Below, piece by piece: positions 7,608 through 36,400 of a stretch of 64,000 nucleotides of DNA; positions within the stretch are counted from its first letter, which is position 1; each line of letters begins with the position of its first letter. The position numbers and the translations under genes were made by a program. The stretch spans positions 1-64,000 of IMG/VR virus record IMGVR_UViG_3300000117_000011, one strand, 5' to 3'. A model generated the notes under the pieces. The model had not been told where the DNA came from and ran no database searches. It saw only the letters and a program-made list of their open reading frames with translations. Source of the DNA: a virus.

Positions 7608-8900
7608 CTAGACAAATAAATGTTTATAAACTCTTTTAAGAGATTCATTGCTGCTTTTATCTTGAAAATTTTTCGGTGTAATAGATATTCTTATTTCTTC
7701 AATGCCTGTTTTAATTAGTTCATAATTTTTTTGAGGTCTGCCGCTTCTTTCTAAATCACTATGATATTTTGTTTTACCTCTTACTGTACCATCATCATTA
7801 AAGTTGTACAATATTTCTTCAGCAGCAATTTCAAATAAATTAATAGCAACTTCAACTTCTTCTTCGCTTAAGTCTTCGCTGTCTAAGACTATAGCTGCGT
7901 GACGCATTGTTTCGTTAAAGTTTTTAAACTTATCTAAAAATCCCGGGCCCATATTGTAAGCCATGTCATAAAAAGCTTGCTTTGTATCTTCAGGAAGTAC
8001 TTTAAAATATTTTACTTTGTTCATTTCATCAATTACGTGAGCAACTTCTTTATCTGCAGCGAGACCTGCTTGATCTAAGTTTATAGGATCAGTACTTGAT
8101 GCATTATCATCTTGAATTGAATAAGTAGTAAAAAACTTTTCACGCCATCCCGGGAGTGTTTTTTCTATCCACTCGGCTTTACTTACACCTTTTTTACTTT
8201 GTTCTTTGAAATCTTTTTCTAATTCTTCATGTTCACCTTCATCAAGATCTGAAGTAGAAAAAGCTTTTGTTCCATGACCAACACTCCATTGATGGTGGTC
8301 TAGATATGGTAGTCCTCTAAAACCTTCGTGACTAAGAATACTTTGTTTAACTTTTTCTTTGTCAATACTTGAGTCGTATTCTATAGAGAATTTAAGATCT
8401 TCACTTTCACTTTTGTTTTTAATTTCGCTAAATGTTTTTTCAATTTTGCTTTTTTCTTCTGGATTTTGTTTGATTAGAGCATCTTTAACTGCATCTTCAG
8501 TTTTTTCTTGTTGAGCAGAGTACGTTTGACCACTACCTTGACTGCTCCCAGGAAATTTAACATGATCAGGTATACAGTTCCAAAGAGCTACAATCATTCC
8601 AAGCGTTACCAATCCTCTTGACGCATAACTTTTAAGACTATTGTACTTTGGTTCTATTGCAGTTAATGCTTTAAATTCTTTGCTTTGTTCGTCAGGTGTA
8701 TCTTTATCTACATAAACATTTTCTTTTCCTACAGGTCTTAAGCCAGTCTGAACATATTTTTCAGGGTCAGATCCTGGTGGATGAGAAGAAACTGGTGTTA
8801 AATTAACATACCTTTTTGAGCTGTCGTCTTCTATTCCTGATTCTATTAAGAATTTTTTTATTAAATAGTGATTTTTTTTATTTTCTGCTATAATAATCAT
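7608..8900 (-). CDS. T4-lysozyme-like muramidase (GH24) with tag and membrane segment, 430 aa
   Basis: It would cut the peptidoglycan glycan chain. The catalytic region is at residues ~187-400: SHEGFRGLPYLD gives Glu192 and Asp201, with Ser206 where T4 lysozyme has Thr26. YDMAYNMGPGFLDKFKNF matches the family's second conserved block, and a distal SGRPQKNYELI follows. T4 lysozyme is only 164 aa, so most of this protein is extra. The N terminus has I-A-E and FLIE (residue 20) tag-like sites, a charged linker and a hydrophobic stretch at ~95-110 (GLVTLGMIVALW). A free endolysin normally lacks this; an internal virion muramidase or a membrane-tethered one is more likely. AAAGG lies six bases before the start. 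Confidence 0.75.
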   Translation of the reverse strand: MIIIAENKKNHYLIKKFLIESGIEDDSSKRYVNLTPVSSHPPGSDPEKYVQTGLRPVGKENVYVDKDTPDEQSKEFKALTAIEPKYNSLKSYASRGLVTLGMIVALWNCIPDHVKFPGSSQGSGQTYSAQQEKTEDAVKDALIKQNPEEKSKIEKTFSEIKNKSESEDLKFSIEYDSSIDKEKVKQSILSHEGFRGLPYLDHHQWSVGHGTKAFSTSDLDEGEHEELEKDFKEQSKKGVSKAEWIEKTLPGWREKFFTTYSIQDDNASSTDPINLDQAGLAADKEVAHVIDEMNKVKYFKVLPEDTKQAFYDMAYNMGPGFLDKFKNFNETMRHAAIVLDSEDLSEEEVEVAINLFEIAAEEILYNFNDDGTVRGKTKYHSDLERSGRPQKNYELIKTGIEEIRISITPKNFQDKSSNESLKRVYKHLFV

Positions 8901-8945
8901 ACAATACCTTTGATTTTATATTTAAGTATAATTATGAGAGACAAA

Positions 8946-9239
8946 ATGAATAATGACGATTTATATATAATTCAGTCAGATGTAACTGGAATGATAAAAA
9001 TAGGTAGATCTAAAAACCCAGAAAAAAGACTGAAACAGCTTCAAACTGGTAATCCAAATAAGTTAAAATTAATAGCTTCTTTTAAAGGAGAAGGATGGAA
9101 AGAAAAGAATATTCATGAAAGATTAAAAAGATATCGTCTTGAAGGTGAATGGTTTAGTTACGATTGCATAGGAAGCATTCCTGATAATCATTATGAACAA
9201 ATATCTTTTGGCTCATTTGATGACTGGTGGGATAATTAA
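8946..9239 (+). CDS. T5orf172 (GIY-YIG-like) domain protein, 97 aa
   Basis: A single small domain: YIIQSDVTGMIKIGRSKNP, then RLKQLQTGNPNKLKL, IHERLKRYRLEGEWFSY. This is the pattern of the T5orf172/MUG113 group of the GIY-YIG nuclease superfamily. A GIY-YIG-type fold suggests DNA cleavage or DNA binding. It is short, with no separate DNA-recognition region, so it may be a stand-alone nuclease or a remnant of a mobile one. The start at 8946 is taken because GAGAG precedes it at five bases. The upstream ATG at 8934 directly follows a TATAAT (8927-8932), which may be its promoter. Confidence 0.75.
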   Translation: MNNDDLYIIQSDVTGMIKIGRSKNPEKRLKQLQTGNPNKLKLIASFKGEGWKEKNIHERLKRYRLEGEWFSYDCIGSIPDNHYEQISFGSFDDWWDN

Positions 9240-9972: not shown

Positions 9973-10896
9973 ATGAAAGATTTTTTTCTGGAAGAAATTA
10001 AAAAAAGTGGTGGATATTCTTGTTACCATGCACATTTTGACAAAGCTTATTTGATAACTCCTGAAATATTTGAAAAATGCCAATCATCGCTTCAGGAAAA
10101 ATGGAAGCTGTACAGAGGATTTAAAATAAATTACACAAAAGAAACACTTTTAAACAGAATGTCAAAATGTATAGTTAACATGATTAATCAGGACGTGAAA
10201 TATGTCAGAACTTTTGTTGATGCTGATAGTATTGTTGAACAAAAATGTATTGATGCTGCTTTGTGTTTAAAAGAAATTTATAGAGACGAGATAAAAATAG
10301 ATATAGCAATACAACCTCTTGAAGGGTTAGAAAAAACAAAAAGTAAAGAAAACTTTCTAGAAGCTTGCATGAAATCTGATTTTATTGGCGGTCTTCCAGA
10401 CCGAGATTCTTCACCAGATAATCATTTAGATTTGTTGTTTGGTTTAGCAAAAAGTCTTAATAAACCTGTTGACATACACGTTGGTCAAAACAATATCCCG
10501 TCTGAAAAAGAAACAGAGCTTGTGTTGGACAAAATAGAAGAACACAAACTTAAACAAAAAGTTAGTTTAGTTCACTGTATTTCACTTTCTTGTCAAGATG
10601 AGAGCTATATAAGACACCAGGCAAATCGTATGCAGCAATTAAACGTTGATGTGATAGTTTGTCCAAGCGCAGCAATAAGTATGAAGCAGAATCATTCTGT
10701 ATACTCTCCTGTTCATAATTCAATAGCACCTGTCAAGATACTTTTAGAAGAAGGTGTCAATGTTAAATTAGGTATAGACAACATTGAAGATTTATTTATG
10801 CCTTTAGTAGACGGTGACATGTGGTTTGAAACAAGATTGTTAATGGAGGCAACAAGAATTTATGATTTGAAAAAAATACTAAATATAGTAACCTAG
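9973..10896 (+). CDS. Amidohydrolase-superfamily protein, cytosine-deaminase-like, 307 aa
   Basis: A TIM-barrel metal hydrolase. The first metal motif is HAHFDK (His19, His21), followed later by DIHVGQ (third His), VHCISLS (fourth His) and the metal Asp in KLGIDNIEDLF, with PLVDGDMW after it. The HxHxDK start and the GIDN-D-F-P-GDGDM ending are characteristic of the cytosine deaminase/ammelide hydrolase branch. Cellular cytosine deaminases are around 420 aa; this one lacks the N-terminal beta sandwich and much of the C terminus. A role in pyrimidine or modified-base metabolism during infection is plausible; the substrate cannot be read from sequence. AAGG precedes the start. Its stop overlaps a convergent stop by four bases. 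Confidence 0.75.
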   Translation: MKDFFLEEIKKSGGYSCYHAHFDKAYLITPEIFEKCQSSLQEKWKLYRGFKINYTKETLLNRMSKCIVNMINQDVKYVRTFVDADSIVEQKCIDAALCLKEIYRDEIKIDIAIQPLEGLEKTKSKENFLEACMKSDFIGGLPDRDSSPDNHLDLLFGLAKSLNKPVDIHVGQNNIPSEKETELVLDKIEEHKLKQKVSLVHCISLSCQDESYIRHQANRMQQLNVDVIVCPSAAISMKQNHSVYSPVHNSIAPVKILLEEGVNVKLGIDNIEDLFMPLVDGDMWFETRLLMEATRIYDLKKILNIVT

Positions 10897-11366
10897 TCTT
10901 TGTCTAATCTAGGAATCCATTCATCAACTTCACTCGGGAGAACAACGTCAGACTGTTTTTTTGTTTTAATAGGTTTTTCTCCATTACTAAAAACTGAAAG
11001 TTTGTCAATTACAGCATTTTGCAATTCAAATATTTGTTCTCTTAATAACTGCATTTGAATTTGAGAGTCACGTAAGCGTGCTATTAAGGCAGCACGGTCA
11101 GCATTGGCAGTAGCAAGTTTATCCTTTAACTCTTCAACTTCAGATGGATCCCGACCAGATGCAATTGCGAGCATAGAAGAAATACTGCCTGTGAGCATAC
11201 CTATAATACCAATTAGAATATCACGATTTTCTTCAACAATTTTTGTTGTTGATAAAAAATAAATAAGCTCACAAATAAGTGCCATAAATACAACACTAGC
11301 CCACCAACCACGTTTGGCTTTGTCACTTTTTGTAAATTGTTTGTTTGTTTTTTCTTTCTCTGCCAT
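10893..11366 (-). CDS. Two-helix membrane protein with coiled coil, 157 aa
   Basis: Two hydrophobic helices at residues ~22-38 (WASVVFMALICELIYFL) and ~49-68 (ILIGIIGMLTGSISSML), then a heptad-like region from ~72 to 122 (ELKDKLATANADRAALIARL and onward), and a basic tail. This shape is seen in phage holin-like proteins and in small membrane effectors. It is the last gene of the leftward operon with the cyclase and lies three bases after it, so a shared membrane function is possible. No cyclic-nucleotide-binding domain is seen. AGGA lies about nine bases before the start. Confidence 0.65.
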   Translation of the reverse strand: MAEKEKTNKQFTKSDKAKRGWWASVVFMALICELIYFLSTTKIVEENRDILIGIIGMLTGSISSMLAIASGRDPSEVEELKDKLATANADRAALIARLRDSQIQMQLLREQIFELQNAVIDKLSVFSNGEKPIKTKKQSDVVLPSEVDEWIPRLDKD

Positions 11367-11369
11367 GAT

Positions 11370-12248
11370 TTAAGATCCTATTAGTATGTTATACAGAAAT
11401 ATATATATATTTTGCAGTAAAGGATACACCCAGCCAATATAATGTTTTAAATCTATTCCTGTCATAGTGTAAAAAATTGCATTTCCATGGAAAGTATTAG
11501 CAGTCTTGATAAGACCCCAAACTAAATAACAAAATATCAAAAAGGAAAGTCTATATATAAACCACCAAAACAATTCATTTAGCGTTTTATTTCTCAATCT
11601 TGTTTTAATTTTTTTTGCGCCACCAATTCGCTTTGCTTTTTCGCCATCTGGAGGTGGTTGTAATTGTGATTCTATTAAACCAATAGCATAAATAGATTCA
11701 GGTTCAGCAACACCTTTAAATTTATATAATCCTACAAGCGCTGACAGGGCTTTTTTAGGTATGTATGGACTCCGGTGCCCATATTTTTTATATTGTATAA
11801 ACGCAGATTTTGAGAGCAATATTTGTTCTTCTCCACATATAGACATAGTTCTTGCTGCAATATTTTTTCCAATTCCTTCAAGGTTAATTCTTTTCCCGCC
11901 AGCTCTTACGATATGTGCTTCAGACTTAACAATAAGCATTTTATCCCAATGTATTCCTACTCTACTACGAAAAGGAAACTTCTTTTTTCGAAGAAACTTT
12001 TTATAGTCAAAAGCAAAACCAATTGAATCTGAAACTTTTGAAAACATCATTAAATGACCATCAGAAGCATCTATTAATTGGCCGTTGTGTCTTGCAATAA
12101 AATTCATGACTGCTTTATCATGAATTCCGAACCACATTGCTGATATTCTTGAGCCATTTTTCTGCACAAACTTAGTACTACCAATTATATCTGTCAAGAC
12201 AATTGCAATATGAGATTCAATCATATTCTCAGGTAAATAATTACTCAT
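11370..12248 (-). CDS. Membrane-anchored class III nucleotide cyclase, 292 aa
   Basis: Class III cyclases make cyclic mononucleotides such as cAMP or cGMP from NTPs. The catalytic domain covers about residues 12-190. The metal-binding Asp residues are in TDIIGST (D20) and ASDGHLMMF (D63). The strand RSRVGIH is conserved. GIGKNIAARTM supplies the transition-state Asn129 and Arg133, followed by EEQILLSKSAF. The base-specifying Lys before the second metal Asp is not present (LIDASDG), so the nucleotide made cannot be predicted. Two hydrophobic helices follow at ~220-246 and ~265-290, an unusual C-terminal anchor. The start at ATG 12248 is preferred to an upstream GTG at 12260. It lies in an operon with a Cys-rich protein and a membrane protein. 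Confidence 0.8.
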   Translation of the reverse strand: MSNYLPENMIESHIAIVLTDIIGSTKFVQKNGSRISAMWFGIHDKAVMNFIARHNGQLIDASDGHLMMFSKVSDSIGFAFDYKKFLRKKKFPFRSRVGIHWDKMLIVKSEAHIVRAGGKRINLEGIGKNIAARTMSICGEEQILLSKSAFIQYKKYGHRSPYIPKKALSALVGLYKFKGVAEPESIYAIGLIESQLQPPPDGEKAKRIGGAKKIKTRLRNKTLNELFWWFIYRLSFLIFCYLVWGLIKTANTFHGNAIFYTMTGIDLKHYIGWVYPLLQNIYIFLYNILIGS

Positions 12249-12447
12249 TTTTACACACACATTTATCTGATATATTTAGACATTCATAACAAATGCAATC
12301 AGGCCATTTACATTCTAAAGCTATAATGTTACATTTACAATTATATTTAATACATTCACAATCTTTGTTGTCCAGATTACATAAAGGACAAATGTGGTCT
12401 TCTGGAATTGGCTTTGTAAAGTCTCTTATATTTTCTTGAGAAGACAT
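12241..12447 (-). CDS. Cysteine-rich, probably zinc-binding protein, 68 aa
   Basis: Residues ~20 to the end contain many Cys in short spacings: CPLCNLDNKDCECIKYNC, then CKC, CKWPDCICYEC, CVC. This would bind two or more zinc ions or form a disulphide-rich knot; there is no signal peptide, so zinc is more likely. The ATG at 12447 is chosen because AAGGA lies six bases upstream; the ATG at 12453 is too close to it. It is the first gene of the leftward operon and its stop overlaps the cyclase start by eight bases. A regulatory or scaffold role beside the cyclase is speculation. Confidence 0.6.
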   Translation of the reverse strand: MSSQENIRDFTKPIPEDHICPLCNLDNKDCECIKYNCKCNIIALECKWPDCICYECLNISDKCVCKNE

Positions 12448-12509
12448 TTGCATTCCTTTTTGTTTGATATGTAAATAATTATCTGTAGGAATAGTAGAAT
12501 AGAGGTTAT

Positions 12510-12773
12510 ATGTTTGATAAAACTCCCCTGAAAAGTAAAAAGTTTATTGCTTATTTAACGGCTGACGTTGGTTGGAAAATAGTAATTTTATATATGTTGA
12601 CACACTTAAAATCAAAGTTAGAAGCTGGCGAACTAACTTTTTTAATGACAGTTGTTGTTACAAGTGGTGTAATTCAAATAGGCTATATACTAGGTCAAGC
12701 AGCATTAGATAAATATATTAATGCTGCTGTTGAAATTCTTGATAAAGATGATCAAGAAAAAAAGGAAAAATAA
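12510..12773 (+). CDS. Small two-helix membrane protein, 87 aa
   Basis: Begins MFDKTPLKSKKFIAYL, with hydrophobic helices at about residues 13-32 (FIAYLTADVGWKIVILYML) and 44-66 (FLMTVVVTSGVIQIGYILG), and a charged C-terminal tail. Similar TPL-SKKF-A two-helix proteins are known to me from marine T4-like phages, where their role is unclear. A holin-like or host-membrane-modifying role is possible. AGAGG precedes the start with a six-base spacer. Confidence 0.65.
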   Translation: MFDKTPLKSKKFIAYLTADVGWKIVILYMLTHLKSKLEAGELTFLMTVVVTSGVIQIGYILGQAALDKYINAAVEILDKDDQEKKEK

Positions 12774-12774
12774 A

Positions 12775-13197
12775 ATGTGTAAATATTTATTTGAAAGTCT
12801 AAGATATAATAAGTGTCTTATAAAACTAGATAAAGTAGAAAAAAAATTTTTATATGAATCACTTATACGAAGTATTGAAAACAAAAACATTAATCTAGAA
12901 TTAGTCAAAAAAACTATTAATAATCTTTCTGAAAGAACTGACGTCCGATATTTTTCTAAATCTCACATTAATCCTATTTCTATTGAATTAATGGAAAGGA
13001 TTAATGAATTCATTAAAGAAGATGTCGGAAGAAATTGGCAAACAGTTTCATTCAGTTCAGAACCTGAACTGGTTAAGCGATCTGTTAGTATTTGTACACA
13101 AACAGGAAAGTACATTGTATGCTGCAACTCTAAAGAAATATATTTTAGTGACGAAGACTCTGCAGTTCTTTATGCTAGAAATAATAAATGCTATTAA
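12775..13197 (+). CDS. Unknown protein, 140 aa
   Basis: Starts two bases after the previous stop, with AAGGA about eight bases upstream. The N terminus (MCKYLFESLRYNKCLIKL) has an L-F-E sequence that faintly recalls the tagged proteins, but the resemblance is weak. The C-terminal half looks like a small alpha/beta domain with several Cys. I do not recognise it. It is probably cotranscribed with the membrane protein before it. Confidence 0.5.
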   Translation: MCKYLFESLRYNKCLIKLDKVEKKFLYESLIRSIENKNINLELVKKTINNLSERTDVRYFSKSHINPISIELMERINEFIKEDVGRNWQTVSFSSEPELVKRSVSICTQTGKYIVCCNSKEIYFSDEDSAVLYARNNKCY

Positions 13198-13273
13198 GTT
13201 AATAAATTTTATTTTTGTCTAATATAATATTGTTTGCAAACTTATTTTAAACTCAAATTGAAAAGTATAATAC

Positions 13274-14896
13274 ATGAATTATTGGATCAACCATTTTCCT
13301 TATAAACAACCTAGAGACGCTCAAGAAAAAATTATATCTAAAGTATTAAAAGAATTTAACAATGGGAAAAAATACGCAATCATAGATTGCGGAACAGGCG
13401 TTGGAAAGTCTGCTATAGGTTTAACAATAGCAAGTTACATGAATGAATCTTCAGACTATGAAGGTGTTTATGAACCTGGTTCTTACTTTTTGACAACACA
13501 AAAAGTCTTACAAGAGCAATATGAAAAAGACTTTCGAGACAAAGGAATGATTTCTTTGTATTCTTCATCCAACTATTGTTGTTCAAAAGATGGAAAAGCA
13601 TCTTGCAAAGATATACAGACAGGCTTAAGAGCAAATAGCTTGTCGAAGAAATACGAAAAATGCAAATACAGCTGTGTTTACAAAGCAAAGAAAAAAGACT
13701 TTATTGAAAAAGACAAAGGTATTACAAACTTTTCATATTTCTTGACAGAAAAAAATTATAGTCAAAAAATACCTAACAAAAAAGTTTTAGTTATTGATGA
13801 AGCACATAATCTGGAGTCAGAATTGTCCAGGTTTATTGAGATTAGTGTTTCTGAATATTTCTCAGAAAAAATACTCAAATTAAAAATACCCAAAGACTTA
13901 AATACACAGTTTAGAGTTTTTAATTGGATAAAAAACAACTATATAGTTTCTCTTTCACAAAAGAAACAATTTATTGAAAATCAATTAGAAAAATTTGGTA
14001 TTACTAGTAATAAACTCGATGAGTTTAAAAAAATTACTAATCATTACGAAATGATAACTTCTCATGAAAAAAAAATAAAACAGTTTATAGAGATATACGA
14101 CAAAGACAATTGGATTTTTGATACAGATAACAGTAGTAAGAGTTATAAAAAGTTTATTTTCAAACCAATAGACGTATCTAAATATGCTAAAGACTATATT
14201 TTAAATTATGCTGATTATGTTATATTTATGTCTGCTACAATAATATCACATGAAGGCTTTTGTTTAACTTTAGGTCTTCCAGCTGAAAAAACTGTTGTTG
14301 TAAAAGAAGAATCACCATTTCCTCCGGAGAATAGACCAATAATATTTTCACCTGCAGGAAGTATGTCTTTTAAAAATATAGACAAAACGCTACCAATATC
14401 AATTGAAATGATAAGCTCTATTCTTAGTCATCACAAAGATGAAAAAGGAATAATACATACTCATAGCATAAAAATTTCTGAGTATATTAGAAAAAATATT
14501 CCAAAAAAATATAAAGACAGAGTTTTGATTGCTTATGGCGAAAACAGAGAAACAATGTTAAATAAACACAAAAAATCAAAAAAACCCACAGTCCTCATAT
14601 CACCTTCAATGGCAGAAGGTGTTGATTTAAAAGGCAGTTTATCAAAATTTCAAGTAATATGCAAAGTTCCTTTTCCTTACTTGGGCGATAAGGTCGTCAA
14701 AAAGAAAATGTCTAAATGGGATTGGTGGTATGATGTTTCAACAATTAGGACTATAATTCAAAGCATTGGCCGAAGTATTAGATCAGAAACTGATACTGCT
14801 GTGACATATATACTAGATAGCGATTGGAAGAGACTCTATAATAAGTCTAAAAAAATGCTACCTAAAGATTTTGAAAGAAGTTATTATGAAAATTGA
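13274..14896 (+). CDS. DinG/XPD-type iron-sulphur helicase, 540 aa
   Basis: A superfamily 2 DNA helicase expected to unwind DNA 5' to 3'. Motifs in order: Q-like KQPRDAQ (11-17), Walker A GTGVGKS (40-46), a four-cysteine insert at ~98-140 (CCSKDGKASC, then CKYSC) typical of the Fe-S domain, Walker B DEAH in VLVIDEAHNLE (~175), FMSATI (motif III), PSMAEGVDLKG (motif V) and IIQSIGRSIRS (motif VI). All the key residues of an active enzyme are present. It is shorter than bacterial DinG and has no extra nuclease domain. It overlaps the Nudix gene by 11 bases, so the two are coupled. No clear ribosome site precedes it. Confidence 0.9.
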   Translation: MNYWINHFPYKQPRDAQEKIISKVLKEFNNGKKYAIIDCGTGVGKSAIGLTIASYMNESSDYEGVYEPGSYFLTTQKVLQEQYEKDFRDKGMISLYSSSNYCCSKDGKASCKDIQTGLRANSLSKKYEKCKYSCVYKAKKKDFIEKDKGITNFSYFLTEKNYSQKIPNKKVLVIDEAHNLESELSRFIEISVSEYFSEKILKLKIPKDLNTQFRVFNWIKNNYIVSLSQKKQFIENQLEKFGITSNKLDEFKKITNHYEMITSHEKKIKQFIEIYDKDNWIFDTDNSSKSYKKFIFKPIDVSKYAKDYILNYADYVIFMSATIISHEGFCLTLGLPAEKTVVVKEESPFPPENRPIIFSPAGSMSFKNIDKTLPISIEMISSILSHHKDEKGIIHTHSIKISEYIRKNIPKKYKDRVLIAYGENRETMLNKHKKSKKPTVLISPSMAEGVDLKGSLSKFQVICKVPFPYLGDKVVKKKMSKWDWWYDVSTIRTIIQSIGRSIRSETDTAVTYILDSDWKRLYNKSKKMLPKDFERSYYEN

Positions 14897-27039: not shown

Positions 27040-30000
27040 ATGACTACAAGAAATTTAGTTCCAAGAGGAGACTCTGAAGGCAAGCTAGGTATTTCCAATA
27101 AAAGATGGGAAGAAATAAATGCTGTTAATCTAAAGATTGACAATTTATATAATGCAAGCGGCAGTTCTCTATTTGTAAAAGGCCCGGGAATAGGCGATAT
27201 TGCACTTGATGGAAATAACCAGTTAAAGATTTCGTTGGACGCAACATTCCTAACTGGATCATTAGGTTTTAATGCAGATGGTACAAAGCCTTCTTTTACT
27301 AACCCAGTAAAATTTACTGCCGATGCGTCTATTATTGCAGCTATCGAAGCATTAGATGAAGCAGCAGGCCAAGTTTCTACACCAACAGGCATTCAATTTA
27401 GTCAGCTTGCTAACGCAACTGTTATAAGTGCATCAGATAGCTCTCAGGCAGATAATGGTTCAGCACTAGAAAGTGCAAAAGCAACAGATAATGCTCTAGT
27501 AACAGGTAAAGCAGTTGTTGATTGGGTAGAATCTCAAAATTATTCTACTAGCACAGGTGATATTACTAACATCATAACAAATACAGCAGGTGGTTTATCT
27601 GGAGGGAGTGAAAGTGGTGAGATAACATTAAGCATAGCTAATACAGATATAGCCACACAAGCGCCGGGTTTATTTCTTGATGGAAACAGCGCTGAACTAG
27701 TTCAAGGCGCTTTAACAGCTTCTATAGGCTCTGCATCTGAAATTCCTGTTTTGACAATTAACAAACAAGGACAAATAACAGGTACAACTACTGAATCCAT
27801 TACTACTAGCTTTAATATAAGCGACAATCAAAGCGATACTGTAACCAGCGGTATAAATGTAACTGGATCTTTTGACAACGGAAACACAATTACATTTGCA
27901 GGTACTTCAGGAGAAATTAAAACTGTATTGGCTGATAACACATCATCATCTAGCATTACTTATAGTTTAATTGACACTACAGTTACAGCTGGAACTTATG
28001 GTAATGCAAGTACAGTCGCAACATTTACAGTCGATGCAAAAGGTAGACTTACAAATGCAGCTGCGACCTCTATCAGCATTGCAACGAGTCAAACTGATGC
28101 AACAGATCTATACTCAGCTGAAGCTCCTGCTGTGGGTCTTAATTTACTAGTCAAAAGAGATGGAAGTGGCAATTTTCAGGCAAATACAATTACAGCAGAT
28201 CTTGTGGGTGATGTATCAGGATCTGTAACAGGAACAGTGTCGACCATAGCAAATCACACTACAGATGGTCTTCCGGTTGGCTCAAGTAATAAATATTTTA
28301 CAGATGATTTAGCAATAGCCGCATTTTCAGCTGGTTCTTTAACCTCTGGAGCAGGAGTTACTGTTAGTACAGCCAATTCTAGAGGCGTAATATCTATTGG
28401 ACAACCTGTTGCGACAGCTTCTACACCACAATTTGCTGGTTTAACACTTAATGATGAAGGTGCGTTAACATTTAAATCTAATCTAGTTGATACAACAGAC
28501 GATGGTATAGATAATCCAGATACAGCATTTCATGTAACACTTCAAGCACCACAAGATTTAGCTGCTTCTTACGGTTTAGTTCTTCCTCCTAATGACGGTG
28601 ATGATAAAAATGTTTTAGTTACAGATGGCTCCGGAAATCTTTCATGGGACACGGTTGAAGTTGCAGCTGGAAATGCTGTTAATTCTTTTGGAATAATCAC
28701 TGTAAGCGGCTCTTCTAGTCTTACTGCTGATACAGCTCAAGATACGCTTACAATAGTAGCAGGCGATGCGATTAATATTACTACGTCAGAAACAGGAAAC
28801 AACGATACATTAACATTTGCAGTTTCTGACGTCTCTGACGACCACCTCAGAGAAATTGCTACCGGCTATACAGGAATAGCTAATGATAAAATAGCAAATA
28901 TAACAGCTGCAGATAAAGTTGCAGTTTCAGCACTAAACATTTCAGCACAATCTGCAGTGTCTAATGGTCTTGCTGATGGTGATCAAATTATTATAAGAGA
29001 CGTATCAGCTGGGTCAGGCGGCGCTAACTCTAAAGCGACAATGACACAACTTGCTACTTATATTAGAGGAAAAGATTCAGGAATAACAACACTTGCTGGT
29101 CTTACATCTGCAGGTGCAGTTGATAGTACACTAAATCTTGAAGGCAGTGTATTAATCGATCAAGCACTAACAGTTGCTGGTAATTTAACAGTTAACGGAA
29201 CTACTACAACAGTTAACTCAACAACACTCCAAGTTGATGATAAAAATATTGAACTTGGCGTAATCCCTAGTGCGCAAACAGGACAAACAGCTACACTCGA
29301 ACAAGATAGCGTTAACGTTTCAGTTGCGTCTACTGCTAACTATCGTGTAGGTGCAAGCTTAACAGTTACCAGCGGTGCAGGTGCTTTTGCATCAGGCGCA
29401 ATAATTGATAGTATTGTTAGCGATACACAGTTTACTACTAACTTTGGACATCAAACTGCAGGCGCTGTCACATTTACAGCAGGCGGTGAATCAAATGGAA
29501 CTGCAAATGGCGGTGGTATTACATTAAAAGCTGGGAATGATACTGATAAGACATTTAATTGGAATAGTAACTCAGAGTCATGGACTTCTTCTGAACACCT
29601 GAAATTATCAGCTGGTAAAGCACTTAAAGCTGTAGATACTGGTAATAGTAATCAAACTGTTTCTATTCTTGATTTAACAACACTTGGCTCTACTGTTACA
29701 AGTTCTAGTTTAACATCAGTTGGAACAATTACTTCCGGTGTATGGCAGAGTAATACCAAAATAGCTTCAGCTTATCTAGATGATGATACTGCACATTTAA
29801 CTACTACTCAAACTTTTACTGGTGCAAAAACATTTGATGCAGCACTTACAGTAGGTGCTGATGCTAATAGTCATGATGTTAAATTCTTTGGTGATTCAGC
29901 TGGTGCTTACTTAGAATGGGATGCAGATACAGATAAACTTGAGTTAAGAGGTAAACCATCAATACTTAATGAAAGCAGCGTTCGAACTGGTAACCCAAGC

Positions 30001-32955
30001 CCTGGACATTTACTACTTTCAACAGGTACAGCTGAAGTACAAGACGGAGACAAGCTAGGTAGAATTGATTTCCAAGCACCGATAATGGGTATTGCCAGCG
30101 ATGACGGCAGACTTGTTTCAGCAGCAATTTGGGCAGAAGCTAATGCTGCTTTTTCAAATGCAGTTAATGCTACAGATCTCGTATTCGCTACAGCCGCCTC
30201 AGAAGTAGCTGCTGAAAAAATGCGACTTGATTCTACCGGTAATTTAACTATTGGTAGTTCTTTAACAATTGGAACAGCTGTAATGACTGAAGCTGATCTT
30301 TTAAAGCTAGACGGTATTGAAGATGGTACAGCTGCAGCTAACAAAGCTTTAGTTTTAGACGACAACAAAGACATTGGAACAATTAGAAATCTTACAATAA
30401 ACGGTACATTTTCTAATGGCAGCTATACATTTGATGCAAGCGGCAATGTAACTGGATTAGGAACTGTAGGTTGTGGCGCAATTACAACTAATGGTGACCT
30501 AACAGTTAATGCAGATACTTCAACATTTGCTTCTGGTAATGCTAGTGATCCTGTTGTTATAATAAAAAATACTACAGATGATGCAAACGGAGCTCGCTTA
30601 AGATTTGTTAAAGATAGAGGCGCAATTGGTGTTGATGACGACGTTGCAGGTCTTATCGAATTCTTTGCTGATAATGACAAATCTAGTGGTAATGAAGAGC
30701 AAGTTAAGTTTGCTGAAATTAAAGCTCAAGTTGCTGATGCAACTGATGGATCTGAAGGTGGTAAATTAACATTAGGTGTTGCTTCACATGATGGCGAGTT
30801 AGTTAGTGGTATTATTTTAAATGGAAGTAGTCAGTTTACTGATAATTCATGTGCTTATAATGATGACACAACTATAACAATGACTAGTACTGCAGCACTT
30901 AAGGTTGGCATGGCAGTTTCAGGTAATGGAATTCCAGAAGATGCTTCTATTGCTAGTATCGCTGAAAACGGAACTGAATTTACACTGTCTGCTTCTACAA
31001 CTGGCGGTAATTTATCAAGTCAGACATTAACATTTGGTAACGTAGAAGATGAAGTTGATGTAACAATAGGATCTGGAACTTCATCTAAAACAACAATTTC
31101 TGGTGATTTAAACGTAACTAGCAATCTTAGCGTAGCTAGTAATCTTAGCTTAGATGGCACAATATCTGTAGATGATCAAACAGACTCAACAGCAACATCT
31201 AATGGCTCAATACAGACTGGTGGTGGTTTAGGCGTTGTGAAAGACGCTTACTTTGGTAATGACGTTATACTAGCTTCAGATAGCGCTGAACTGGTATTTG
31301 GTAGTGACAAGGAAATTAAACTAGCTCACTCAAACGACTCCGGCTTAGTTATGACTTCTGGCGATGCCTCAGCAAGTCCAGTGTTAGAGCTTAAAAATAC
31401 AAATTCTGATGCGACTGGTGCTATATTGAAGTTTGTTAAAGATAAAGGAACCGCTGGCGCAGACAATGATGTTGCAGGTGTTATTGAGTTTCACGCTGAT
31501 GATGCCAACCAAGACCAAGTTAAGTTTGCCGAAGTTAAAGCTCAAGTTGCTGATGCAACTGATGGATCTGAAGGCGGTAAATTAACATTAAGTGTTGCTT
31601 CACATGATGGTGATTTAGTAAGTGGTATCGTTATAAATGGAAGTAGTCAATTTACAAATAGCTCATGTGCTTATAATAACTCGACAACTATAACAATGGA
31701 TAGTACTGCAGCTCTTAAAGTGGGAATGTCAGTTTCAGGTACAGGTATACCTGCTGGAGCTGAAGTTTCTAGTATCGCTGAAAACGGAACTGAATTTACA
31801 CTGTCTGCTTCTACAACTGGCGACAATTTATCAGGTCAGACATTGACATTTGGTAACATAAATGACGAAGTTGACGTAACCCTTGGTAATGGATCAAGTT
31901 CTACAGTAACAATTGCAGGTAATCTAACAGTAAGTGGCACAACAACAACAGTTAATACAGTTACTATGGAAGCTGCAAATGCAATTGTTTTTGAAGGTGC
32001 TACGCCAGATGAACATGAAACAACTTTAACTATTGAAGATCCAACAGATGATCGAACAATAACATTGCCTGATGCAACAACTCAACTGGTTGGTCGTGAC
32101 ACAACAGATACTTTAACAAATAAAGTTTTAACAACACCAACTATTAATGGCGCTGCTCTTAGCGGCGCATTCTCTGGATCACCTACATTCAGCGAAGCTC
32201 TTGGATTTAGTGGTATTGGTACACATAATGCTTTGGATGTTTTTAACGCAGGCATTTCAGTTAAAAATGGAAATACTACAGCAGGCTTTATTGATTTCTA
32301 TGAAAATAGTGGCAACGCTGAGGGTAGCCCAGCAACATCGAAATACGCAAAATTAATCGGGCCAGCATCCATTACGGGAAATATTACATTAACATTGCCA
32401 GCAACAGCAGATACATTAGTTGGTAAAGCTACGATAGATGCACTTACAAATAAAACAATCGATTGTAATGGTACTGGAAATAGTATTACAAATATTGAAG
32501 TTCATAATTTTAATCAGGCTGTTATTGTAGAAGATTCAGAAGGAATTGCAAATAACGACAATAATACAACGATACCAACATCTGCAGCAATCAAGTTATT
32601 TGTTGAGCAACAGTTAGGACGACACGGCGGTATATTTAAAACAGACTCAGTAGATAACGGTAATACAGGGGCAGCATATGAGACAACTCGCGCACAATTA
32701 ACAGATGGTATTACACACGATTATACAAGAGACGTTATATTTGACTCTTCACCTTTAGTTCGATCACACTTCGGTCCTTTTGCATTTGACTTAGGACAAC
32801 TTGTAGATGAAGGAGGTTCAGATATAAGTTTCTTTGGCTCGACAGCAGTTCAATCATCAGATAGACACTTTCTAGTGATTGGCTCTACTGTTGATGGAAC
32901 AGATGATACTGCCGGTGATTGCAAGTTTACAGGAGCACATGCAAAGACACCTTGA
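27040..32955 (+). CDS. Giant fibre protein 3, 1971 aa
   Basis: N terminus LVPRGDSEGKLGISNKRWEE, a virion-attachment pattern (NLVP--D---LG---KRW) seen in marine phage fibres and shared with giant fibre 4. The body is a string of beta-rich modules: NLTVNGTTTTVNSTTLQVDD, KALVLDDNKDIGTIRNLTI, and two copies of a ~270-residue module (residues ~1167-1345 and ~1443-1617) with RFVKDRG/KFVKDKG, QVKFAE, KAQVADATDGSEGGKLTL and VASHDG. The C-terminal ~100 residues (HGGIFKTDSVDNGNTGAAYE onward) are unlike the rest and may be the receptor-binding tip. It is among the largest proteins in the window. It belongs to the long tail fibre or whisker class; the exact place in the virion is unknown. Confidence 0.7.
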   Translation: MTTRNLVPRGDSEGKLGISNKRWEEINAVNLKIDNLYNASGSSLFVKGPGIGDIALDGNNQLKISLDATFLTGSLGFNADGTKPSFTNPVKFTADASIIAAIEALDEAAGQVSTPTGIQFSQLANATVISASDSSQADNGSALESAKATDNALVTGKAVVDWVESQNYSTSTGDITNIITNTAGGLSGGSESGEITLSIANTDIATQAPGLFLDGNSAELVQGALTASIGSASEIPVLTINKQGQITGTTTESITTSFNISDNQSDTVTSGINVTGSFDNGNTITFAGTSGEIKTVLADNTSSSSITYSLIDTTVTAGTYGNASTVATFTVDAKGRLTNAAATSISIATSQTDATDLYSAEAPAVGLNLLVKRDGSGNFQANTITADLVGDVSGSVTGTVSTIANHTTDGLPVGSSNKYFTDDLAIAAFSAGSLTSGAGVTVSTANSRGVISIGQPVATASTPQFAGLTLNDEGALTFKSNLVDTTDDGIDNPDTAFHVTLQAPQDLAASYGLVLPPNDGDDKNVLVTDGSGNLSWDTVEVAAGNAVNSFGIITVSGSSSLTADTAQDTLTIVAGDAINITTSETGNNDTLTFAVSDVSDDHLREIATGYTGIANDKIANITAADKVAVSALNISAQSAVSNGLADGDQIIIRDVSAGSGGANSKATMTQLATYIRGKDSGITTLAGLTSAGAVDSTLNLEGSVLIDQALTVAGNLTVNGTTTTVNSTTLQVDDKNIELGVIPSAQTGQTATLEQDSVNVSVASTANYRVGASLTVTSGAGAFASGAIIDSIVSDTQFTTNFGHQTAGAVTFTAGGESNGTANGGGITLKAGNDTDKTFNWNSNSESWTSSEHLKLSAGKALKAVDTGNSNQTVSILDLTTLGSTVTSSSLTSVGTITSGVWQSNTKIASAYLDDDTAHLTTTQTFTGAKTFDAALTVGADANSHDVKFFGDSAGAYLEWDADTDKLELRGKPSILNESSVRTGNPSPGHLLLSTGTAEVQDGDKLGRIDFQAPIMGIASDDGRLVSAAIWAEANAAFSNAVNATDLVFATAASEVAAEKMRLDSTGNLTIGSSLTIGTAVMTEADLLKLDGIEDGTAAANKALVLDDNKDIGTIRNLTINGTFSNGSYTFDASGNVTGLGTVGCGAITTNGDLTVNADTSTFASGNASDPVVIIKNTTDDANGARLRFVKDRGAIGVDDDVAGLIEFFADNDKSSGNEEQVKFAEIKAQVADATDGSEGGKLTLGVASHDGELVSGIILNGSSQFTDNSCAYNDDTTITMTSTAALKVGMAVSGNGIPEDASIASIAENGTEFTLSASTTGGNLSSQTLTFGNVEDEVDVTIGSGTSSKTTISGDLNVTSNLSVASNLSLDGTISVDDQTDSTATSNGSIQTGGGLGVVKDAYFGNDVILASDSAELVFGSDKEIKLAHSNDSGLVMTSGDASASPVLELKNTNSDATGAILKFVKDKGTAGADNDVAGVIEFHADDANQDQVKFAEVKAQVADATDGSEGGKLTLSVASHDGDLVSGIVINGSSQFTNSSCAYNNSTTITMDSTAALKVGMSVSGTGIPAGAEVSSIAENGTEFTLSASTTGDNLSGQTLTFGNINDEVDVTLGNGSSSTVTIAGNLTVSGTTTTVNTVTMEAANAIVFEGATPDEHETTLTIEDPTDDRTITLPDATTQLVGRDTTDTLTNKVLTTPTINGAALSGAFSGSPTFSEALGFSGIGTHNALDVFNAGISVKNGNTTAGFIDFYENSGNAEGSPATSKYAKLIGPASITGNITLTLPATADTLVGKATIDALTNKTIDCNGTGNSITNIEVHNFNQAVIVEDSEGIANNDNNTTIPTSAAIKLFVEQQLGRHGGIFKTDSVDNGNTGAAYETTRAQLTDGITHDYTRDVIFDSSPLVRSHFGPFAFDLGQLVDEGGSDISFFGSTAVQSSDRHFLVIGSTVDGTDDTAGDCKFTGAHAKTP
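30541..31890 (+). repeat. Tandem module repeat in giant fibre gene 3, shared with fibre gene 4
   Basis: Two ~530-bp copies about 817 bp apart (30541-31071 and 31369-31890) are very alike in DNA, for instance the run AAAGCTCAAGTTGCTGATGC. Related copies lie in the next fibre gene at about 34264-34784 and 37528-37848. This creates homology between neighbouring genes. Confidence 0.7.
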
Positions 32956-33407: not shown

Positions 33408-36400
33408 ATGTCAGCATTGAAACCTGATACAGACGACCTACATACGCTTGGTACGTCGGATAAAAAATGGAAAGAACTCCATGTTCACGATATTGAATTG
33501 AAATCGAGCTTAAAATTAGAAGGCTCAAGCTCGGGCGTATCGACACTAGCTACCTTGGCCGCAGCTGCTGATACAACAATTAATTTGCCTGCAATGGCTA
33601 CAGGTACATATCATCTACCAGTTTTAGCTTCAGCTACAACAACAGCAATTGCTGCTACGCCTGAAGAACTTAATCTTCTTGACGCAGGTACAGCAAGAAC
33701 AGCATTTGCCGGGGGAGATGGCTTACAGCTTGCAGACGAACTTATAATTGATGATAATTCTGCAAGTGCGTCTAAAAAAATACAAGTTCAAGATCTGGTT
33801 GATTTTCTTGAAACAACAAACGGTGTGAGCGGCTTTGCTTCTGCAGTTTCGATTACAGATTCTACTGCGTCTTCTAGCGTAGGTACTGGTGCTTTAAAAG
33901 TCGATGGTGGCGTAGGTATTGATAAAGAGTTATTTGTAGGTTTAACAGCTAATATTGCAGGTATTGCAACATTTCAGGATTCACTCGCTATTCAGAGTCA
34001 ACCTGCAAATGCTCTTGGTATTCGCTTTAACTCTGATCGGGGTGAGAATGACATCAATAGTACAGACTACGACGTTAAGGTCATTGATGTCTTTGCGGGA
34101 ACAGGAGATGCAACTCAAGGTACAATCCTTTGGGATGATGATCAATCCTCTTTCTCGGTAACAAGCGGAAAACTTCACTCTGAAACGCAGTTTACAGTAG
34201 GACCGATTGCCACTCCTAACTTTACAGTTGCGCCAACAACCGGTGTAATTGATGTTGAAGGTTCAGCTCCAGTTCTTACTATAAAAAATACAGCTAGTGA
34301 TGCAGTTGGTGGTGTGTTAAAACTTGTTAATGATAAAGGCGCTGCAGGCGCTGATAATGATGTTGCAGGTGCAATTGAATTTCATGCTGATGATGATGCT
34401 CAAGATCAAGTTAAGTTTGCTGAAATTAAGGCACAAGTTGCTGATGCATCTCAAAGTTATGAAGGTGGTAAATTAACTCTAAGCGTTGCTTCACACGACG
34501 GAGGTTTAGCAAGTGGTATTGTTATAAATGGTGGCACTCAAATTACAGATGCTACATGTGATACGACTGAAAATAGTACAACTGTAACGATGGATAGCAC
34601 TGCAAATCTACATGTAGGAATGGGTGTTATAGGAACAGGTATTCCAGCATTAGCTACTGTTGCAAGTATTCATGCGAACGGAACTGAATTTACACTGTCT
34701 GCACAAGCGACTGCATCAAACAATGACGAAACGTTAACATTTATAAATGCAGATGACGAAGTTGATGTAACAATTGGTAACGGTTCAAATTCTACAGTAA
34801 CAATCCCGGGTAATCTAACTGTTCAAGGAACAACAGTTACAGTAGACACTACAAATTTAAGTGTGAGTGATCAAAATATTCTTATTAATGATGGTGGTTC
34901 ATTAGCAAACTCAGCAGGAGCAGGATTAGATATCGAAGCAGCCGGCTCGGTCGCTGGCTTTATGAGAGTAGCATCAAGCCATGCTAATCTAGAGTTTAAA
35001 GCACCTTCTGGAAGTACTTTAACTCTAGATGTTGATGCTAACAAAACACTTACAGTAAATGGTGATCTAAATATTTCAGGTGATTCTGTAATTAATCAAG
35101 ATTTATCATCAAACTCTACTAATGCAGAACTTGGAAGATTAACACTCAGTAATGCTTCAGGTTTATTACCAAAGACTACTGCAGGCGGGGGCTTTATTGA
35201 TATCGGCTCAGCTACTGCAGAATTTGGTGACATTTTTGTTGGTGATGGAAAAGGACTTAAGCTTGGCGCGGATCAAGATGTAACAATTTTACATGATTCT
35301 GCTGTAGGTCTTGCAATTGAATCGACAGGTGATATCGGTATTAGTTCAAATGCCGGTAGCATTAACATTGGCGCTGATCTGGCAGATGATCAAACTTTAA
35401 AGCTTGGTAAAGCAAGTACTGTTCAAACAATTATTGCACCGAGCAATACAGCTGGTAGTGAGCTTTACTCTGTAATTAACACTGCAGGTGATACAACAGG
35501 TGCTGATGGTGCAGGTGCTATTTTACTCAGTTCAGTAGCTGGTGGTATGGGTCTTGCTTGGAATGCTGCTAAAGCATTACATGCACAAGGTGGTACAGCT
35601 GTTATCGCTGCTGAAGAAAATATTGCTAATGCTATTAAGCTTCACGCAACTGCAGGCTCTAGTCAGTCTATCAGATTAGAAAACACTGCAGGTTCAGCTG
35701 ATGCATCGACAATTACAGATGCTACATGTGATACGACTGAAAATAGTACAACTGTGACAATGGATGATACATCAGCTATTGCAGCTAACATGTCAGTTTC
35801 AGGAACAGGTATACCAGCTGGTGCTTTTGTTGTAAGTGTTACAAATGGAACCTCTTTTGTACTGTCTGCACAAGCGACTGTGTCAAACACTAATGAGACT
35901 TTGACATTTACTAAATCCGCTGCAATTGATTTAACAGCATCAGCTGGTGGTGTTAATATTGATGCTGCAGCAGCTAAAGATGTTAAGATTTCTGGTGGTC
36001 AATTAGCTTTAACTTCAAAAGATGATGCCGCTTCTGCAATTTCATTAACTGCTAATGTAGGTACAAGTGAAACAATTGTCGTAACAAATACACAAGGTAC
36101 AGCTGACGGTACAAATTCAAATGCAGCTGCAGTTCAATTAACTTCAACTGCAGGTGGTATGGGTCTAGCTTGGAATGATGCTATGGATCTTTGGGCTGAA
36201 GGTGGTAGAGCAATTATTACTGCTAATGAAAACCCAGGATCAGCTGGTCCAGTTATTAAATTACATGCTGATGCAGGAGCTAATCAAACTATACAGTTGT
36301 TAAACGATGCCGGTACAGATGAAGCTGCAATTGATTTAACAGCATCAGCTGGTGGTGTTAATATTGATGCTGCAGCTGCTAAAGACGTTAACATCGGTGG

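Follow-up and report, generated by a model that had tools for sequence, protein, structure and literature searches.

Nearly everything known about cyclic-nucleotide signalling in the conflict between phages and their hosts comes from bacteria, through the Pycsar, CBASS and Panoptes systems, with phages acting as the destroyers of the signal. What, then, is a nucleotidyl cyclase gene doing in the genome of a phage? We addressed this question for an ORF on the minus strand (11370–12248) of a 64,000-nucleotide stretch of DNA, referred to here as the window, which corresponds to positions 1 to 64,000 of a virus record 95,164 bases long. The ORF encodes 292 amino acids from an ATG codon, or 296 from an upstream GTG at 12260. 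An initial annotation, made from the sequence alone, had placed it in one operon with genes for a Cys-rich protein and a coiled-coil membrane protein; this operon is real and tight. Its first gene encodes the small Cys-rich protein (12241–12453, minus strand; 12 Cys in 70 amino acids) and overlaps the start of the cyclase ORF by 8 nt. The gene for the membrane protein, which we call CC (10893–11366, minus strand; 157 amino acids), starts 3 nt past the cyclase stop. A further small gene, TM2 (12510–12773, plus strand), encodes 87 amino acids with two membrane helices and is divergently transcribed in the window.

Sequence, profile and model comparisons all identify a class III catalytic fold in the cyclase. 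A phmmer search with the window protein matched Ma1120 of M. avium (E = 4.5e-6), and the profile of the family matched Rv1900c and Ma1120 in the PDB with E values of about 1e-11 to 1e-15 (2.6e-15 for Rv1900c of M. tuberculosis). The same two proteins were recovered by Foldseek with an AlphaFold model of the cyclase (pLDDT 84) at E = 5.9e-14 and with a TM score of 0.91 normalised to Rv1900c. Pfam, including PF00211, gave no match to the window cyclase even at an E value of 10, a silence that we attribute to sensitivity because PF00211 scores above cut-off in sister proteins. The catalytic domain occupies residues 1–195 and is followed by a basic linker (200–222) and the anchor region. The earlier description of a phage-encoded class III cyclase with a C-terminal membrane anchor is thus borne out, although of the two membrane helices that it placed after the catalytic domain the first (about 229–247) is clear and the second (about 274–292, at the C-terminus) is weaker. 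Comparison of the window cyclase with its relatives gave dN values of 0.06–0.17 against dS values of 1.1–1.4, with dN/dS about 0.05–0.12 for near relatives. The ORF is real and under strong purifying selection.

We examined the active site in an alignment of 65 distinct proteins with a mean identity of 51% and a minimum of 24%. The two metal-binding residues, Asp20 (codon 12189–12191, minus strand, as for all codons here) and Asp63 (12060–12062), and the transition-state Arg133 (11850–11852), all three of which had been picked out as catalytic in the window protein, are invariant (65/65). The transition-state Asn129 (11862–11864) is kept in 62 of the 65 and is Ala in the other three; Ma1120 naturally has Ala at this position, yet is active (PMC4215837). 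The full set of invariant residues comprises D20, S24, T25, D60, D63, G64, R96, H100, K119, E124, G125, K128, R133, M135 and S136. These features suggest that the window enzyme is likely to be catalytically active. We assign it to class III by its fold and catalytic residues, and claim neither AC nor GC subtype. One cyclase relative (G038:C1:152019-152867) contains a single in-frame TGA, which may reflect recoding, decay or a sequencing error.

The base-recognition pocket departs from the AC and GC patterns. At the first base-specifying position ACs have Lys and GCs have Glu (PMC4215837). The initial annotation had recorded the base-selecting Lys as missing, which is right as far as it goes; more exactly, profile alignments show the Lys replaced by Asp60 (12069–12071), which is invariant (65/65) and aligns with Lys101 of Ma1120, the equivalent residue in Rv1900c being Asn. 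The second base-specifying position, placed by comparison with D157/A164/R168 of Ma1120, is Asn122 (11883–11885) in the subtype to which the window protein belongs and Glu in the other. The family thus carries D60/N122 or D60/E122 instead of the canonical Lys/Asp pair of ACs or the Glu/Cys-type pair of GCs. Positions 58, 61, 65 and 122 switch jointly between the two active-site subtypes: they are L or W, then A, S or N, then H and N in the window subtype (type A; 20 proteins), and E, R, F and E in the second (type B; 44 proteins), with one outlier. Among the PycC cyclases of Pycsar, BcPycC recognises UTP through Y50, D94 and R97, and EaPycC recognises CTP through F100, R142 and Q144, its metal-binding residues being D102 and D146 (PMC11224242). 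From these positions, D94 of BcPycC probably also sits at the place of the purine-specifying Lys. The phage pocket therefore differs from that of a standard AC, although its sequence does not name the base.

We surveyed the distribution of the cyclase and CC across virus, plasmid and cellular collections. A single-sequence scan of IMG/VR with the cyclase found 18 relatives (61–91% identity), an alignment scan found 32, and an alignment that included the second subtype found about 318 cyclase loci; CC as an independent query found about 315 loci. Two additional scans of viral sequences, started from deep members, yielded just one and four more loci. INPHARED yielded no relative of either cyclase subtype, INPHARED and PLSDB none of CC, and peptide-pattern scans of GTDB genomes none of the cyclase or of CC. 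PLSDB searched with the type-B cyclase returned only ordinary class III cyclases of about 28% identity, mostly rhizobial, and no CC-like partner is annotated around two of these in the PLSDB tables, which are incomplete. In the collections searched (IMG/VR, INPHARED, PLSDB and GTDB) the cyclase–CC pair is thus confined to phages, which we take from the IMG sample numbers to be mostly aquatic. Its genomic surroundings are unrelated from case to case, and the longest contig to carry it measures 376 kb. One record of 375,691 bases (G012) has part of the cyclase gene at either end, which indicates that the genome of this jumbo phage is probably circular or circularly permuted.

The cyclase and CC are found together with great regularity. 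Neighbour clustering placed CC downstream of 17 of 19 and then of 31 of 33 cyclase loci, and the two loci lacking it among the 33 are fragments that end shortly past the cyclase. Among the best-scoring 80 of the 315 CC loci, a cyclase is present in all 80, nearly always immediately ahead of CC and co-directional with it. Conversely, 76 cyclase loci were newly read from the best-scoring 80 of the 318, and CC is present in 74; the other two break off no more than 450 nt from the cyclase, so that CC accompanies every readable cyclase (74/74). The two genes therefore form an obligate pair among the best-scoring 80 loci of each scan, the weakest family members lying outside this sample. The check proposed with the initial annotation, whether related phages share the same three-gene order, came out very strongly positive for the cyclase and CC and partly positive for the Cys-rich gene, which occurs at about one locus in two.

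The interval between the cyclase stop and the CC start is in most cases −4, −11 or −14 nt; in 58 of 65 distinct pairs it does not exceed 115 nt, and in the remaining seven further genes intervene. Where read, the products of these intervening genes are mostly small, beta-rich and like fibre or decoration proteins, on which ground we rejected them as candidate effectors. In L005, L006, L007, L008, L015, L017 and L029, variable small beta-rich genes separate the cyclase from CC or come immediately after the cyclase, and the site beside the cyclase is a hotspot for exchangeable structural genes. Small phages have the order terminase, ThyX, small Cys-rich gene, cyclase, CC and Mu-type portal. In larger phages the pair adjoins fibre-like genes, and the tail or fibre surroundings differ between phages. 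Its place among packaging and fibre genes hints that the pair may be expressed late.

The other two genes beside the pair are more loosely associated with it. Of 62 distinct cyclases, roughly half have a counterpart of the Cys-rich gene upstream (38 raw matches, a few of them chance ORFs or small lipoproteins, against a background of 0.11 per 1.2 kb per strand), and we regard this gene as an accessory whose forms diverge fast. In L068, L073, L076, L082, L083, L084 and L090 a small lipoprotein-like ORF, with four conserved Cys after a lipobox-like Cys, replaces it upstream of the cyclase. Eleven of 16 large records contain TM2, in many cases at a great distance from the pair, and it also occurs in records with no detected cyclase; we therefore rejected it as an obligate third part, and it is accessory or unrelated. 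The TM2 family, conserved at 87 amino acids, numbers 81 IMG/VR loci (L210–L289) in records of up to 536 kb.

CC has hydrophobic helices at residues 20–38 and 50–68, joined by a short conserved N-R-D loop and followed by a long, coiled-coil-like predicted helix (74–127). Its structural model, of low confidence (pTM 0.33), is all-helical, with two membrane helices and the long helix. The second membrane helix carries the glycine/serine-rich motif IGIIGMLTGSISSMLAIASG, which could pack helices together. A search of the PDB found no solved-structure relative of CC, and Pfam gave no match over cut-off and no recognisable nucleotide-binding domain. Over residues 16–120, CC is 92–98% identical in amino acids to its counterparts in several phages, with only 29–61% identity at 4-fold sites, and 79–89% identical to those in other phages, with 27–52% at 4-fold sites. 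Because amino-acid identity is high while synonymous sites have diverged, CC has been kept by selection and not by recent transfer, and these comparisons point to extreme constraint. The conservation of CC exceeds that of the cyclase. The initial annotation had centred on the cyclase, and this view needs widening: the enzyme stands, but CC is also key.

The gene trees of CC and the cyclase conflict strongly (delta lnL 592 and 2000). The cyclases of L060 (type B) and of the window (type A) share 40% identity and their CC proteins 80%, whereas between the window and L004 identity is 76% in the cyclase and 67% in CC. CC does not track the cyclase subtype. A receptor that recognises the base ought to vary along with the pocket. 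For this reason a physical partner or regulator would appear to fit CC slightly better than a base-specific receptor, an argument that weakens if both subtypes share one product.

We compared the pair with known systems. The catalytic domains of Ma1120 and Rv1900c, the best PDB matches, share with the phage cyclase the fold, the two metal-binding Asp and the transition-state Arg. Identity is about 20%, however, and the phage enzyme has Asp for the purine-specifying Lys and Asn or Glu for the second base residue, Asp, and adds a C-terminal membrane anchor and an obligate partner. Pycsar (PycC with PycTM or PycTIR) likewise pairs a class III cyclase with a neighbouring membrane protein and has a non-AC base pocket, in which BcPycC is inferred to carry Asp where ACs have Lys. 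PycC has Tyr or Phe two residues before the first metal Asp, whereas the phage cyclase has Leu18, and the phage pair is phage-carried and absent from the cellular genomes searched. The PADLOC PycC model scored weakly, at E = 1.4e-3 for the window cyclase and 5.7e-5 for the best of its relatives, and the uridylate cyclase 8jsz gave a profile E value of 0.028 against the family. A cyclic-nucleotide-binding domain (CNBD; PF00027), as in Pycsar effectors, is found neither in CC nor in any of 16 phage records with the pair. With no CNBD effector and weak PycC scores, the pair is not a member of Pycsar, and the parallel drawn with that system in the initial annotation does not survive as more than a loose analogy.

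Panoptes (the mCpol synthase OptS with the 2TM effector OptE) also combines a synthase and a two-helix membrane protein in a two-gene operon. Its synthase belongs to another family, OptE has a beta-barrel ligand domain where CC has a long helix, and Panoptes is a bacterial defence whereas the cyclase–CC pair is carried by phages. Our synthase is a class III cyclase and neither an mCpol nor a CD-NTase, and the low-confidence, all-helical model of CC contains no S-2TMbeta or other ligand domain. The resemblance to Panoptes and CBASS 2TM operons is thus one of layout only. SLATT domains resemble CC in having two membrane helices and a helical cytosolic part, but its scores fall below the curated cut-offs. 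The open-access full texts searched describe no adenylate cyclase system of this kind encoded by a phage; as subscription papers and preprints lie outside that corpus, novelty is provisional. BFVD contains viral proteins named as cyclases.

We propose that the pair is a two-gene membrane signalling module of the phage, with an active cyclase at the host membrane and CC as its dedicated scaffold or gate, a reading that in our judgement has close to an even chance of being right. The cyclase would be anchored by its C-terminus in the host inner membrane and would produce a cyclic mononucleotide with a base other than the canonical AC choice. CC would be its dedicated membrane partner. Its membrane helices would probably oligomerise through the glycine/serine-rich second helix, its long cytosolic helix would contact or align the cyclase domains, and CC could thereby couple the state of the membrane (for example superinfection, depolarisation or approaching lysis) to cyclase activity. 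The product would be expected to act on receptors of the host, given that the 16 phage records examined yielded no cyclic-nucleotide-binding protein. The phage might gain host signalling, the exclusion of other phages, or timing. The three roles put forward in the initial annotation, namely signalling to the host, jamming of its cyclic-nucleotide defence and exclusion of rival phages, look alike at the level of sequence.

Alternatively, CC could itself be an effector: the cyclase product, or its loss, would open or assemble CC in the inner membrane and so harm the cell or depolarise it. The pair would then be a phage-carried superinfection-exclusion system or inter-phage weapon, built like the CBASS-Cap15, PycTM and Panoptes OptE operons. 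The Panoptes-like layout, the conserved second membrane helix and a faint SLATT-like score of the membrane part of CC (13 of 18 members, best E 0.003) are consistent with such a role. However, CC has no nucleotide-binding domain, the phages have no CNBD, CC is unchanged by the active-site subtype, and the pair is phage-carried with no trace in GTDB genomes, and we consider this explanation unlikely, although by no means negligible. An improbable one is that cAMP or cGMP from the cyclase reaches host CRP-type receptors and alters metabolism, receptors or motility while infection proceeds, with CC merely localising the enzyme. It would account for the failure to find a phage receptor, and CNBD regulators are common in Gram-negative bacteria; a DUF481 outer-membrane protein gene near the pair in relatives (in L001 at 12717–13469; PF04338, E = 8e-18; signal-peptide-like start) suggests that the hosts are Gram-negative. 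Against it, Asp replaces the purine-specifying Lys in all 65 proteins, the conservation of CC goes beyond the needs of a simple anchor, and the cyclase has an anchor of its own.

Two other roles are far less probable. The pair might flood, decoy or sequester a cyclic nucleotide and so counter Pycsar- or Panoptes-like immunity of the host, as the invariant Asp at the inferred place of D94 in the uridylate cyclase BcPycC could indicate, but the similarity to PycC is weak and producing the alarm molecule normally triggers such defences rather than blocks them, which makes this role very improbable. Slimmer still is the chance that CC and TM2 are holin-like and that the cyclase sets the timing of lysis. 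Weak holin profile matches (best E 0.004 for TM2 and 0.037 for CC members) and a lysozyme-like ORF 2 kb away point in this direction; that ORF (7608–8900, minus strand) encodes a 430-residue protein with an N-terminal extension and the motif HEGFRGLPYLDHHQWSVGHGTK, recognised by eye, on which Pfam is silent. The holin scores are nevertheless at noise level, and in small phages the pair lies between terminase and portal.

Returning to the reading of CC as scaffold or gate, we suggest more tentatively, as something possible yet on balance doubtful, that the pair is a widespread and undescribed phage-confined system, in which an obligate pair makes a non-standard cyclic mononucleotide in two substrate subtypes and forms a membrane assembly unrelated to known effectors. 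If this is true, a class III synthase with a hyper-conserved obligate membrane partner in hundreds of phages would reverse the picture drawn from the bacterial side. Within infected cells, hundreds of uncultivated phages probably operate their own signalling device, and the compactness of the two-gene unit opens to direct testing which NTP is used, how CC acts and what the phage gains.

Several other genes in the window were recorded. An amidohydrolase-family gene (9973–10896, plus strand; PF01979, E = 7e-5, just below cut-off) adjoins the pair, as does a counterpart upstream of the cyclase in the otherwise unrelated phage L066. A GIY-YIG/T5orf172/MUG113 endonuclease-like gene (8868–9239, plus strand) recurs near the pair in about 13 related loci. 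Two giant ORFs, of 1971 and 1927 amino acids, occupy 27040–32955 and 33408–39191 on the plus strand.
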